Shown one piece after another: positions 15,763 through 24,210 of a DNA stretch of 26,123 nucleotides (position 1 is the first letter of the stretch; each line of letters starts with the position of its first letter). The position numbers and the translations under genes are program-made. Source of the stretch: Gammaproteobacteria bacterium (lineage in GTDB: Bacteria > Pseudomonadota > Gammaproteobacteria > Pseudomonadales > Pseudohongiellaceae); contig JAESUT010000067.1 of assembly GCA_016762995.1 (NCBI GenBank), forward strand, positions 1-26,123, in the 5' to 3' direction. Under the pieces are notes generated by a model, which saw only the letters and a program-made list of their open reading frames with translations, had not been told where the DNA came from and ran no database searches.

Positions 15763-16832
15763 ATGGAATCCATTTACTACGTGCTCTGCTGGCATTGTCA
15801 TCGGCGCTGCAAGCATTGCTATGAATCTCGCTTTCGACCGTACATCAGGGACGAACTCGAAGCTGTAGTCGCTGAGGCAGAGACGAATTTTCCGCAGATT
15901 ATCGCCAACCTCCCTGAACGCATGACCTTTCTTGAGGCTAACAGCAACTCTTCAGATCCTGACGCCTATATCGAGAAGACGGGGAAAATAATCTTGTCCG
16001 GTGGTGACGTATTGACGAACCCGTTCGTGAACGAATCCTCTACCCGGTGCTAGAAGCGTTACAAGAAAAATACCGCGACAATGGCGGAATAAAAGTGGTG
16101 GTGCAGACCACAGGTGACTTGTTGACGCCAAAAATTATTGATGAGTTATTGAGCCGCAATGTCTGGTCTATCTCTGTATCCGGCATGGATGATTTTCATG
16201 TGGGGATGGAAGGCGACAAGAAAGATGCCCTCGCGGAAAAAATTAAGGCCATGCTGGAAGATGCGGGCATCAAACACGCCGATGGGGAAAGAGACGAGCG
16301 TGCATTAGAGAAGGGTCCGATCTTCAGCATGTTTGGTGCGAGCGAAGATTCCTGGATCGGCAAGCTTTGGCCTCGCGGTCGAGCCTGGGAGAATGGGCTT
16401 TCTAAGGCAACGATCGAAGACAATTTCTGCAACGCCTGGTCCGGCGGGCTCAACTTCCTACAGCATGGCTACGCAGGCTCAGAAGTTTCGATCGACCCTA
16501 CTGGTGATGTTTACCCCTGCTGCATAAAGACCGCTAACCCGCTAGGCAATCTTACCGAAGAGCCTCTTGTCGGGATTCTCGACGACTTAGCCGGCAACCC
16601 GGCTATAGAGGCTATCAATGCTGGGAAGCCCGAACGCATGGGCTTAACCCATGGCTGGGATGAACAAAAATTCATCGCCGAATCGTCAACCAAAACGCCT
16701 AATGGAGAGAGCTACAGCAACCTCTGTATCGGTTGCGATAAATTTCATGTTGAGGTGTTGGGCGCAGTTCTCGATGAGAAGCGGCGCGATCGTCGTGCTC
16801 AACGCATGGGAGTATTGGCTACCAATGGATAA
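15763..16832 (+). pseudogene. Radical SAM/SPASM-domain protein gene with a one-base frameshift
   Basis: Two frames together encode what should be one protein of about 356 residues. The first (15763-16053) holds the 4Fe-4S radical SAM motif CHRRCKHC (Cys12, Cys16, Cys19) and the SGGD loop. The second, open from 16008 and continuing to 16832, carries the rest of the barrel and a SPASM-like C-terminus with further cysteines: DVYPCCIKTANPLGN and LCIGCDKF. Restoring one base near the CCC at 16020-16022 gives a smooth join, TNP-VRERILYPVLEAL. Either the gene is freshly inactivated, or the sequence has a one-base error; both halves look well preserved, which favours error or a very recent event. SPASM proteins usually modify peptides or proteins. 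AAGGGA precedes the ATG. The gene runs directly into a YnjB-type transporter gene. Confidence 0.83.
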
Positions 16833-20479: not shown

Positions 20480-21421
20480 CTAACGACCACTCGCATTGCG
20501 GCCACGGTTGAGAGCATCTTGGGTGCCGGTCGATAGCCCTCCATCTAGCCCGACAGTAACAAATCGAAAACCTTGCGCTAGTCGCGTCTCTACGGTGCGC
20601 GAGTTTGTGGTAATAGCACAGGGGACATCGTGAGCCAGACAGCTGCTAAGCACGGTCTGAATAGCGGCTTCGACTTCTGGTGCCGCTGAATTGGCATAGC
20701 CCATCGCAGCGCTTAAATCAGATGGTCCAATAAAGATGACGCCGGTGCCCGGTACGGAAATAATCTCCTCGATGTTTGCAACTCCCTCGGGCGTTTCGAT
20801 TTGAATGATTGCAAGCAACTCACCACTCGGATCTAAGGGCCACAGATCTGCCTTTGCCGTGTAGTCTCGTATTCCCCAATACCAGACTGCGTTCGATGGG
20901 TTGCGTCCACGTAACCCTCTAGGCTCATAGTCGTCCGCGCCATTGAGCTGTGGATACCTGCTCGCCCGAATCGCCATCTCGGCCTGGTCCGCATTGTTTA
21001 CAGAGGGGAACATTATGCCGAACGCTCCCACGTCTAGTGCCTGCTTCACCTGTGACAGTACATCCTCGCCACCGCTTGCCGGGATGCGCACAAATGGCAC
21101 TACATTCGGCTGCAAGCTGCCCTTCTCAAGGATTGCGCGCTTATCGGTCATACCAAGCAAAAACTCTCGAATCCTCTCAACATCGAAAGGGGCGTGCTCC
21201 ATATCGATGATGATAAAATCCAAGCCTGATCTGGAAAGAGACCGAGCATTGTTGAGTGAATAGTCGAATGACAAGAGGCCGAACGCCGGCTCATCATTCT
21301 CCAACAAGGCTATCGCTTTGTTCAAGCGCATCTCCGTTTCCTGAGACACCGTCCCTGGGGAGTTCACTAGTAGAGCAAGTGCGAAGCTGGCAACTACGAT
21401 TGGCTTCATTTGTTTTTTCAT
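20480..21421 (-). CDS. HpcH/HpaI-type aldolase with an N-terminal signal peptide
   Basis: A 313-residue protein of the HpcH/HpaI class II aldolase family, which cleaves 2-oxo-acid aldols to pyruvate plus aldehyde. Active-site features remain: IIIDMEHAPFD (catalytic His76 region), VRIP (Arg112), QIETPEG (metal-binding Glu209) and GPSDLSAAMG (metal-binding Asp235); the 26-residue Glu-Asp spacing equals that of HpaI. Unusually, residues 1-30 look like a Sec signal peptide (basic MKKQMKP, hydrophobic core, then VSQE), whereas HpaI enzymes are cytoplasmic. Start at the ATG at 21421, preceded by AAGGA; a longer frame to 21475 would bury the signal. It is divergent from the selenoprotein gene at 21678. 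Substrate unknown; a membrane anchor instead of cleavage is possible. Confidence 0.85.
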   Translation of the reverse strand: MKKQMKPIVVASFALALLVNSPGTVSQETEMRLNKAIALLENDEPAFGLLSFDYSLNNARSLSRSGLDFIIIDMEHAPFDVERIREFLLGMTDKRAILEKGSLQPNVVPFVRIPASGGEDVLSQVKQALDVGAFGIMFPSVNNADQAEMAIRASRYPQLNGADDYEPRGLRGRNPSNAVWYWGIRDYTAKADLWPLDPSGELLAIIQIETPEGVANIEEIISVPGTGVIFIGPSDLSAAMGYANSAAPEVEAAIQTVLSSCLAHDVPCAITTNSRTVETRLAQGFRFVTVGLDGGLSTGTQDALNRGRNASGR

Positions 21422-21594
21422 CAATTTTTCCTTGTTAGGCGAGTCTGTCAAGCGCATCGATTTGGAGCAGAGCAACCAGCACCGCGACTACCTTACGATC
21501 GAGGATCCCGTAAATAGTGCCTGAATCTCCCGACTATTCAATCACCTAATTCTCCTGTTCGCCATAGATTACAATACCCTCAGCCAAAGCCAAC

Positions 21595-21603: not shown

Positions 21604-21677
21604 GAGCGCGCTGCCGACACTTTGGCGGCCAACTCAGTCGTTCAGAGGCGAATTCCGCTCTGATTAAGGAGAACACC

Positions 21678-22814
21678 ATGAAGAATCTAAGAAGCATAGT
21701 CGGTGTCGCAGCCGCCATGCTTATAAGCGGCGTACTCAACGCCCAGAGTGCTACTGTGCTCTACAACGAGCGGGTGGTAGAGCTGGAGCAAACGCTGCCA
21801 GACGCTACCGATCTTTGGGTTAAGCCCGAAGACCTGACCCGAGTAAACGATTTCGTGCTGAAGCCTGAAGGGGCTTGCCTGGACGAATTGTGCATCCCGG
21901 TTCTGCAAGATAGAGACAGTGACATGTTTATTACTCGTGGCGGTCAGGGATGGTTCAATGTCACCGAACTGGCGGACAAACTACAGCAAGCCTACGTCAC
22001 GGATTACAATGACGGCATCTGGAGTTTTGGCACTATGCCTGTAACGCGTCAGTCTTTTCTGCGCGGTGGCAAAGCGCCCGATTTCGAATTGATGGGTCGC
22101 GATGGCGAGCTAGTTAGACTCTCAGATTTTAGAGGTAAAAAGGTACTATTGCTTACTTGGGCCTCGTGGTGAGGATGTAGATTTGACGTGCCCGTGTGGC
22201 AGTCCATTTACGAAGAACTCAAGTCCGATAATTTCGAAATCATCTCTGTCGCGCAAGACACTGGCGGTGAAGAAGCTGCTGGCTCCTACTTTGATGATGC
22301 CAAGGTCACCTACACGGCGATCATCGATGTAAATCATCAAATCAGTTCGCTCTACAATCTGGTCAATGTCCCCTCCGGTGTTTGGATCGATGAGGAAGGA
22401 TCGATAATGCGCATCAACGAAGGCACCTATGCGAAGGAGCATTTTGATGGCGCGTGGGGCACCAATGACTACGTACCCATCGTGCGTGACTGGGTAGCGA
22501 AGGGAGCCGACAGCGAATACGTTTGGGATCGAAAAAAAGTACGTGAGAGCATCATCCAACGCACAGCTGATGCCGAACGTGCACAACCTGCTTTTCGTCT
22601 AGGCGGGTATTACTTTACTCGTGACAACGACGAGAAGGCAGAACAGTACTGGACCATGGCACAGGAACTTGATCCAACGAGCTGGAACTATCTCAGACAG
22701 GATCTGGAGTATGAGGAAGGCGGTAACGCTGGCCCTGAATGGCGAGCTAGACGCGAGCAGGTAGAAAGTGCGGGTGGTAGTTACTATGCTCCGCTAGAGA
22801 TCGAGAATAACTAG
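21678..22814 (+). CDS. Predicted selenocysteine-containing thioredoxin-fold exported protein (UGA at codon 165)
   Basis: One frame of 378 codons is interrupted only by TGA at 22170-22172. Read as selenocysteine it gives TWASW-U165-G-C167-RFDVP, where thioredoxin-like TlpA proteins have WASWCxxCRxxxP; Cys167 aligns with their second cysteine, so the redox pair is U-x-C, not CxxC. Residues 1-22 are a signal peptide; ~23-130 an N-terminal domain with Cys67 and Cys72; ~131-275 the thioredoxin fold (KAPDFELMGRDGELVRLSDF before the active site, and NVPSGVWIDEEG holding the cis-Pro); ~295-335 a TPR-like helix pair. AAGGAG precedes the ATG at 21678. A SECIS-like hairpin lies just after the TGA (22185-22204). 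The frame after the TGA stays open for 213 codons, opposing decay. A nonsense mutation or a sequencing error of TGC/TGT is the alternative. Envelope thiol chemistry is the likely role; no sel genes are in view. Confidence 0.82.
22185..22204 (+). promoter_or_regulatory. Putative bacterial SECIS stem-loop
   Basis: GAC-g-TGCC (22185-22192) pairs with GGCA-GTC (22198-22204): seven base pairs with one bulged G on the 5' arm, and a five-base loop CGTGT that has G at its second position. The loop starts 20 bases after the in-frame TGA, within the 16-37 range described for bacterial SECIS elements, which SelB binds. The hairpin lies in coding sequence, as expected in bacteria. Pairing was checked by eye only. 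Confidence 0.65.
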
Positions 22815-22862: not shown

Positions 22863-22912
22863 AGACCAACAAAAAGCCGACCAAGAAATCTTGGTCGGCT
22901 TTTTGTTGGTCT
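22863..22912. terminator. Perfect bidirectional terminator
   Basis: A perfect 23-base-pair inverted repeat (22863-22885 with 22890-22912) surrounds the loop AAAT. The stem core is GCCGACCAAG/CTTGGTCGGC, flanked by an A run on the left arm and the matching T run on the right, so transcripts from either strand end in a GC stem followed by U-rich sequence. It lies between the convergent selenoprotein and NHL-propeller genes. Confidence 0.92.
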
Positions 22913-22924
22913 GATTTTGAAAGA

Positions 22925-24046
22925 CTATCTAGCACTCCAAGCAGGGCTAATTAGCAATTCTGGGTCAGCGCCAGGCTTTGGCACGAATTTCTGAGTACGG
23001 CCGTATTGGTTGTCGCCACCGTATAAATTGCCATCAGGGTCTACACTGAAAGAATGCACTTCGATATAACCATCCGGCAATTCCCGTGGTACTAGCCAGG
23101 TGTATTTTAAGTTGCCATCGAAATCAAAATTTACAAAGCGCAATGGACCTAAATCTGTGATCCAAAAATCATCTTCATTGACGATGATGTCCAAGGGTAA
23201 CGTAAGCTGGCCAATCGATCTTATGAATTCAAATTCGACTGGATCGTCCGTCGCTTGCCAGAGATTGACCCGATTTCCAATGCGATCGAGAACAAATACA
23301 CGTCCTTCAGGTCCAACTGCAACCGAGTGGATTGTCGTGGTCTGACCTGGTCCTTTTCCTTCGCTACCGAATTCGCCAAGATAGTTCATATCACTATCCA
23401 TGATCATGATGCGATTATTGTCTAGCCCGTCTGCGATGAGGATACGACCATCTTCCATAAACGCGACATCCTGTGGCCGACCAAAATGAGTGCCGTCGGT
23501 TCCGGGAACGTTTTTCTCGCCGTAGGTCGCAAGTACTTCGCTGCCATCGTTCGCAATCACGTAAATTTGATGAAATGTCTCATTCACCAACCAAATGCGT
23601 TTTTCAGGATCGTAGGGATTGATGCGGATTCGGTGAGGACCAGGGCCTGCCGAGCCTTCGCACAGATAGTCCAAATGATCCCACACCTCCACAGGTTCGC
23701 CGTCTGCATTGACTATAAATAGACAGTTATTCCAAGTGCGGCGCTCCGTGTCTCTTAATACATTAAGGCCTACATGACCCGCAAACCCCAGAAAATCATC
23801 GGGTAGCGGATAAGGAAGAACCGTTTCGCCACGTTGGGCGATGATGATACGGTCCGCGGATTCGGCCAAGACACCCGAATTGCCGCCAAAGGCATAACCC
23901 GCTTCAGCAAAGGGATCGGCCCAGAGAGAAACGACGTTGTAGGGACTCTCGCCAATAGGCCCGCGGGCATTACCCTGTTGAGAAAACGCGGAACTAGATG
24001 CAAAGAATGCTAGCCCCAATACGGCTAGCCGGTTCAGTTTATACAT
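22925..24046 (-). CDS. Exported NHL-repeat six-bladed beta-propeller protein
   Basis: A 373-residue exported protein. Residues 1-22 are a signal peptide (MYKLNR, hydrophobic core, SAFSQQ). The body shows NHL-type repeats: FGRPQDVAFMEDGRILIADG, NRIMIMDSDMNYLGEFGSEG, HSVAVGPEGRVFVLDRIGNR, LDIIVNEDDFWITDLG and HSFSVDPDGNLYGGDNQYGR. Such propellers include peptidyl-alpha-hydroxyglycine lyases and SMP-30-like lactonases, but many are non-enzymatic binders; I cannot choose. The ATG at 24046 is preceded by AGAGAGG about ten bases away and gives a proper signal peptide, unlike the longer frame to 24103. It follows, on the same strand, a secreted family gene and a PQQ propeller gene, suggesting a shared catabolic or sensing function. 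Confidence 0.82.
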   Translation of the reverse strand: MYKLNRLAVLGLAFFASSSAFSQQGNARGPIGESPYNVVSLWADPFAEAGYAFGGNSGVLAESADRIIIAQRGETVLPYPLPDDFLGFAGHVGLNVLRDTERRTWNNCLFIVNADGEPVEVWDHLDYLCEGSAGPGPHRIRINPYDPEKRIWLVNETFHQIYVIANDGSEVLATYGEKNVPGTDGTHFGRPQDVAFMEDGRILIADGLDNNRIMIMDSDMNYLGEFGSEGKGPGQTTTIHSVAVGPEGRVFVLDRIGNRVNLWQATDDPVEFEFIRSIGQLTLPLDIIVNEDDFWITDLGPLRFVNFDFDGNLKYTWLVPRELPDGYIEVHSFSVDPDGNLYGGDNQYGRTQKFVPKPGADPELLISPAWSAR

Positions 24047-24210
24047 GGTGGTAGAGCCTCTCTGATGAACTATGTGGTCACTTGTTATTCTGGCGCCTAT
24101 CATGACAAATAACGCCGAAGAAATTCAATAAAATTCAGAAAAAGCACAAAATGTTGCAAATCACTCACATTTTGGCAGAAGGGGAAATTAGATTGCCGCA
24201 AAGGGCGCTA

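Follow-up and report, generated by a model that had tools for sequence, protein, structure and literature searches.

A UGA codon at the active site of a probably exported thioredoxin-fold protein from a gammaproteobacterium is very probably read as selenocysteine

Introduction

Thiol-disulfide oxidoreductases of the ResA/TlpA/DsbE family are exported proteins, and the active site of ResA and TlpA is C-x-x-C. We describe here a gene for a relative of these proteins with an in-frame TGA codon at its active site, found on a stretch of 26,123 nucleotides (the window, meaning the whole of that stretch; contig JAESUT010000067.1 of GenBank assembly GCA_016762995.1, labelled Gammaproteobacteria, Pseudohongiellaceae). 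The window protein has the thioredoxin fold of TlpA/AhpC-TSA type in common with ResA, TlpA and DsbE, but carries U-G-C (U, selenocysteine; U/C-x-C in the aligned relatives) where they carry C-x-x-C, and it adds an N-terminal domain with a cysteine pair and a C-terminal helical part. Because the codon is conserved, the sequence of a hairpin behind it is conserved, and genes of the decoding machinery are present, we hold with high confidence that UGA 165 is read as selenocysteine (Sec) and that the gene encodes a selenoprotein, one that is probably exported; this confidence applies to the selenoprotein reading, and the substrate is judged separately below.

Selenoproteins of this general kind have been described. 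Table 3 of a 2005 Sargasso Sea survey has a single Prx-like sequence whose motif is UXC (PMC1088965), and Table 2 of a 2008 Global Ocean Sampling survey places 'Prx-like (UGC-containing)' selenoproteins among the already described families, with 46 Sec and 855 cysteine (Cys) sequences given in that survey (PMC2398784). The window protein has both the Pfam00578 domain and the UGC motif of the latter group (PMC2398784), and judged by domain and motif the two are likely one group. The best NCBIfam match of the window protein (E 5.2e-75) is NF041054 (WAxxUGC_long, ResA-like WAxxUGC motif-containing protein), a model whose title motif itself names U and which has the W-A-S-W-U-G-C site and a C-x4-C ahead of it in common with our protein. 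The score, 252.9 bits, is under the curated cut-off of 300, and we therefore treat the window protein as a sister branch and not as a member. When ten chosen proteins were compared with this model, seven scored 237-278 (from loci L024, L041, L050, L053, L057 and L058, and the Cys protein P0003), and the cut-off was passed by those of L063 (307.5), Chloroflexota L064 (570) and Actinomycetota L069 (542). Since NF041054 and the surveys already include the UGC kind, the finding is a well-supported selenoprotein of a known kind, and its branch is one that the curated model misses.

Results

A single frame interrupted by one conserved TGA

The gene and its internal codon are placed as follows.

21678..22814, plus strand: predicted selenoprotein gene of 378 residues with TGA as Sec (U165), from the frame and the relatives
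22170..22172, plus strand: TGA codon predicted to be read as Sec, from the frame, the relatives' codon and the Cys homologues

The frame opens with ATG at 21678, ends with TAG at 22812-22814, and has only one internal stop, the TGA at residue 165. An earlier note on this DNA had proposed that two open reading frames (ORFs) merge here into one product of 378 residues, which they do; it had the second ORF begin at 22173, where there is no start codon, and the first listed start is a GTG at 22188 that would give a headless protein of 208 residues. The ORF list of the window agrees with the note that standard gene calling yields a truncated N-terminal product and a headless redoxin, and both motifs that it had read from the joined frame, TWASW-U-G-C-R and NVPSGVW, are present in the translation.

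A scan of contigs from other genomes gave 51 loci, of which 50 span the codon (L072 does not). The codon is TGA in 49 of these 50, from several phyla according to the record labels, and TGC in one (L059). The view that the TGA is more than a random nonsense mutation is borne out by its retention in these relatives, and since other assemblies carry it too, it is no sequencing error. Of 137 genomes from the same family, some of whose assemblies are also in the scan, 36 proved to have a near-full-length copy; all 36 belong to the window's genus and have TGA at the site, and G073 holds fragments of the gene only. All 34 near copies have an uninterrupted frame before and after the TGA, over 375-385 residues. 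A TAA in G114 that was first taken for decay proved to be the gene's own end.

The protein database holds 741 homologues, and our figures rest on the best 120. Among them are 59 full-length proteins (at least 340 residues), with Cys at the site in 58 cases and Leu in one, and 61 short pieces that start near codons 171-173, P0005 being the window's own. Cys also aligns with the TGA in 18 of 19 chosen rows, so the alignment that the note had expected of Cys homologues is found. In a quick tree of 108 rows, with weak support for 33 of its 105 inner branches, Sec and Cys copies fall in several separate groups. Cys copies were also sought as DNA in 369 genomes of the same class, in plasmids and in viral contigs, and there was no full-length one among the matches listed.

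Several single sequences deserve mention. The protein with Leu at the Sec position (P0018, TWASWLGCR) comes from a contig of 1,280 bases, and its Leu may stem from an error in sequencing or mark a lost catalytic residue. A divergent TGA copy with the motif WASW-U-I-C lies at L056:4977-6128, and G058 has, beside its main copy, a second TGA copy that is 53% identical (G058:C48:28138-29169); judged by their identity and the source of the contigs, the two are probably the same sequence. Distant relatives of the same class (L090 and L091, from G227 and G450) have WGSY-U-GCS with TGA, and their downstream bases are nearly the same (GTCCGTGTGGCAG).

A predicted hairpin directly after the TGA

According to the 2005 survey, the bacterial selenocysteine insertion sequence (SECIS) is a stem-loop that directly follows the UGA and has a small apical loop containing a guanosine (PMC1088965), and the window has a hairpin that agrees with this description in both respects.

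22176..22212, plus strand: predicted bacterial SECIS hairpin, from folding, frozen codons and the relatives' stem
22189-22192/22198-22201, plus strand: apical stem (UGCC/GGCA) with loop CGUGU at 22193-22197, part of the predicted SECIS

The loop of the predicted SECIS begins at the 21st nucleotide after the UGA. Codons 170-173 (Asp, Val, Pro, Val) are each written with one codon only in all 34 near copies, the window included; they are the four lowest in synonymous variety among 177 scorable columns, and the five seven-codon runs of lowest variety start at codons 166-170. Under the assumption of exchangeable columns, all four lowest would come to lie in the five scorable columns of 170-175 with a probability of about 1.3e-7, a figure that applies to a region picked with SECIS in mind and to 34 sequences some of which are close kin. 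The four-pair apical stem is standard in 50 of 50 TGA sequences (49 loci and the window), the second loop position is G in all of them, and the loop is CGUGU in 45. It is also the consensus structure, kept in 32 of 32, of an alignment of 32 of these sequences that spans Gammaproteobacteria, Hydrogenedentota, Planctomycetota, Binataceae, Chloroflexota and Actinomycetota by record label. The register of the lower stem varies between groups and was not forced into one structure. When folding is begun at nucleotide 13, the apical stem is in the minimum-energy fold of 49 of the 50 sequences. Finally, the TGC (Cys) copy L059 is without the four-pair stem.

Machinery for selenocysteine in the same genome

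The window is contig C170 of the genome assembly (G000), which is 3.05 Mb in 234 contigs and 92% complete. Three of the four machinery genes named in the earlier note are found there; the fourth, selA, is taken up with the points against our reading. The selB gene (395.7 bits, over cut-off) and the tRNA-Sec gene (68.9 bits; ARAGORN anticodon tca) lie on the same contig, C28, and selD (297.2 bits, over cut-off) is on C172. The tRNA-Sec threshold, 59 bits, was set above tRNA look-alikes near 46-49 bits. Among the 36 genomes with the TGA gene, 31 have selA, 33 have tRNA-Sec of at least 59 bits, 29 have both and 35 at least one; selB is over its cut-off in 33, the exceptions being G057, G091 (best match a 223.5-bit piece) and G114. 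The selD match (G000:C172:1710-2633, L073) is within a much longer open frame (759 amino acids) and is a possible fusion; a Cys-type SelD fused with NADH dehydrogenase is among the proteins of the 2008 survey (PMC2398784).

A second redoxin of this genome, of AhpC/TSA type, likewise has a TGA at its active site (SFDW-U-PYC; G000:C99:33954-33956, L019:1699-1701, minus strand) and a hydrophobic N-terminus. Its first CGTG base comes 23 bases after the first TGA base, the same distance as in the window gene, which has a further CGTG at offset 17, and its 48-nucleotide fold gives a SECIS-like hairpin with a five-base apical loop, CGUGC. From these features it is likely the second selenoprotein of the genome, and probably exported.

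Parts of the protein

The product has four parts.

21678..21746, plus strand: likely signal peptide, residues 1-23 (cleavage between ...LISGVLNAQ and S), from a hydrophobicity index of 2.48 and a model helix at 2-16
21747..22058, plus strand: N-terminal domain, residues 24-127, with C67 and C72 (C-x4-C), from the conserved Cys and a model with a predicted local distance difference test score of 88.7
22059..22439, plus strand: thioredoxin-fold domain of ResA/TlpA/AhpC-TSA type, active site W-A-S-W-U-G-C-R
22464..22811, plus strand: C-terminal helical, weakly TPR-like part, from model helices and matches to TPR_1 (E 0.012) and TPR_2 (E 0.013)

The protein is probably exported, as suggested by its N-terminus; the hydrophobicity index is crude and the cleavage site is a prediction. 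When a value of at least 1.6 within the first 40 residues is taken as a sign of export, 33 of the 34 near copies qualify (L041 has 1.56), as do two of the ten distant copies L062-L071, whose start codons are unsure. C67 and C72 are both Cys in all 21 diverse and all 34 near rows, and a Foldseek search with the N-terminal domain gave no match at E <= 0.001, and so no clear fold match. The thioredoxin fold is nearest DsbE/ResA, and both TPR matches are below the Pfam cut-off.

Surroundings of the gene

Two further features flank the frame.

21666..21671, plus strand: Shine-Dalgarno-like AAGGAG, six bases 5' of the ATG, read from the sequence
22865..22912, plus strand: inverted repeat (22865-22886 and 22891-22912), a possible transcription terminator, found by eye

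Since AAGGAG precedes the ATG and an inverted repeat follows the frame, the gene is possibly transcribed on its own. Its two neighbours (20480-21475 and 22925-24103) are near the gene copy in 15 of the 51 loci (L022-L032, L037, L039, L040 and L055) and not near it in the others, and we therefore propose no partner or pathway. Among named relatives the nearest are metagenome assemblies with the labels Gammaproteobacteria, Pseudomonadales or SAR86, which suggest a marine home. Elsewhere, at 15763-16832 of the window, a CxxxCxxC motif lies near the start of a gene that seems to be split between overlapping ORFs in different frames, by either a frameshift or an assembly error; ORF 16047-16832 weakly matches a model for radical SAM/SPASM proteins (26.5 bits against a cut-off of 450), and ORF 15763-16053 has no match to it.

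Discussion

Decoding of the UGA as Sec is deduced from the conserved codon, the hairpin and the machinery genes, and a number of our observations weigh against it. The window hairpin is modestly more stable than shuffled sequences (z -1.44, 15 of 200 shuffles as good), and a longer stretch is less distinct (z -0.43, 60 of 200). Folded over 48 nucleotides, 35 of the 50 TGA sequences have the complete apical stem of four pairs in their minimum-energy structure, and in some of the 50 the pairing probability of this stem is near zero. No apical pair is changed on both sides in the 32-sequence alignment; the stem is nearly invariant there (one pair has two G-U cells of 32), and since it hardly varies, covariation speaks neither for nor against pairing. 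L059 is the only Cys copy that could be compared as DNA, there being no full-length Cys DNA among the matches listed, so that the loss of SECIS in Cys forms has this one example.

On the side of the machinery, selA is not found in the window's own assembly, which in the terms of the earlier note would speak against Sec, nor in four further TGA genomes of the 36 (all five at most about 92% complete), and G114 (85% complete) is without selA, tRNA-Sec at 59 bits and selB over its cut-off. Of the relatives, G126 (50 contigs, listed as 100% complete) has the most similar protein, and its selA and selB are about 24 kb apart. The 13 kb of G126 around selA have no match in the window's assembly, while a control piece of 15 kb around selB has four, with 77-85% identity, on contig C28. 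That the whole selA segment is unmatched while the selB segment matches is most simply explained by a gap in the assembly, with real loss of the segment as the alternative. Finally, selA or tRNA-Sec is found in 82 of the 84 genomes of the genus, including 47 of the 48 without the gene; the machinery is thus a genus-wide trait, and its co-occurrence with the gene is weak evidence. A Fisher test over the 137 genomes (p 2.5e-5) was set aside since gene and machinery both follow the genus.

These points leave the selenoprotein reading in place, and we envisage the following course. SelB and tRNA-Sec would decode UGA 165 as Sec, aided by the SECIS hairpin, and the signal peptide would take the product to the periplasm. 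Here the Sec, placed where the active-site helix of the thioredoxin fold begins, would attack a disulfide or peroxide; Cys167 would resolve it through a U-x-C selenenylsulfide, and in the N-terminal domain Cys67 and Cys72 might hand on electrons or provide a second disulfide.

Among the alternatives, the one that survives best concerns the substrate and is a version of the Sec reading, not a rival to it: the selenoprotein, once exported, may work as a thiol peroxidase (Prx/GPx-like) and not as a disulfide oxidoreductase. We lean somewhat towards a thiol-disulfide oxidoreductase (ResA/TlpA-like), and consider the peroxidase a real possibility, though the less probable of the two. It is much harder to maintain that the UGA is read as another residue, for example Trp through suppression or a changed code. 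An open frame through the TGA does not by itself name the residue; however, Trp occurs at the site in none of the 59 full-length homologues among the best 120, TGA serves as a stop that ends four of the 25 main ORFs of the window, and selB and tRNA-Sec are in the genome, so that we give this explanation very little credence. We give practically none to a pseudogene made by nonsense mutation or sequencing error, which the truncated and headless gene calls and the missing selA might suggest, against the same TGA in the relatives, the frame open on both sides of it in every near copy, and the frozen synonymous codons 3' of it.

Recognition of the selenoprotein puts right the gene calls in a single genus of Gammaproteobacteria, to which all 36 genomes with a near-full-length TGA copy belong, out of 137 examined. 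The protein is often split in public predictions, as the 61 headless pieces among the best 120 of 741 homologues illustrate. A family with Sec and Cys forms and an almost frozen SECIS should also be useful for probing which bases SelB needs. As a tentative proposal, on balance doubtful, the Sec-x-Cys thioredoxin domain of the exported UGC branch and its separate Cys-pair domain of unrecognised fold could form an internal electron relay; if so, this would be periplasmic selenium catalysis that current annotation misses.
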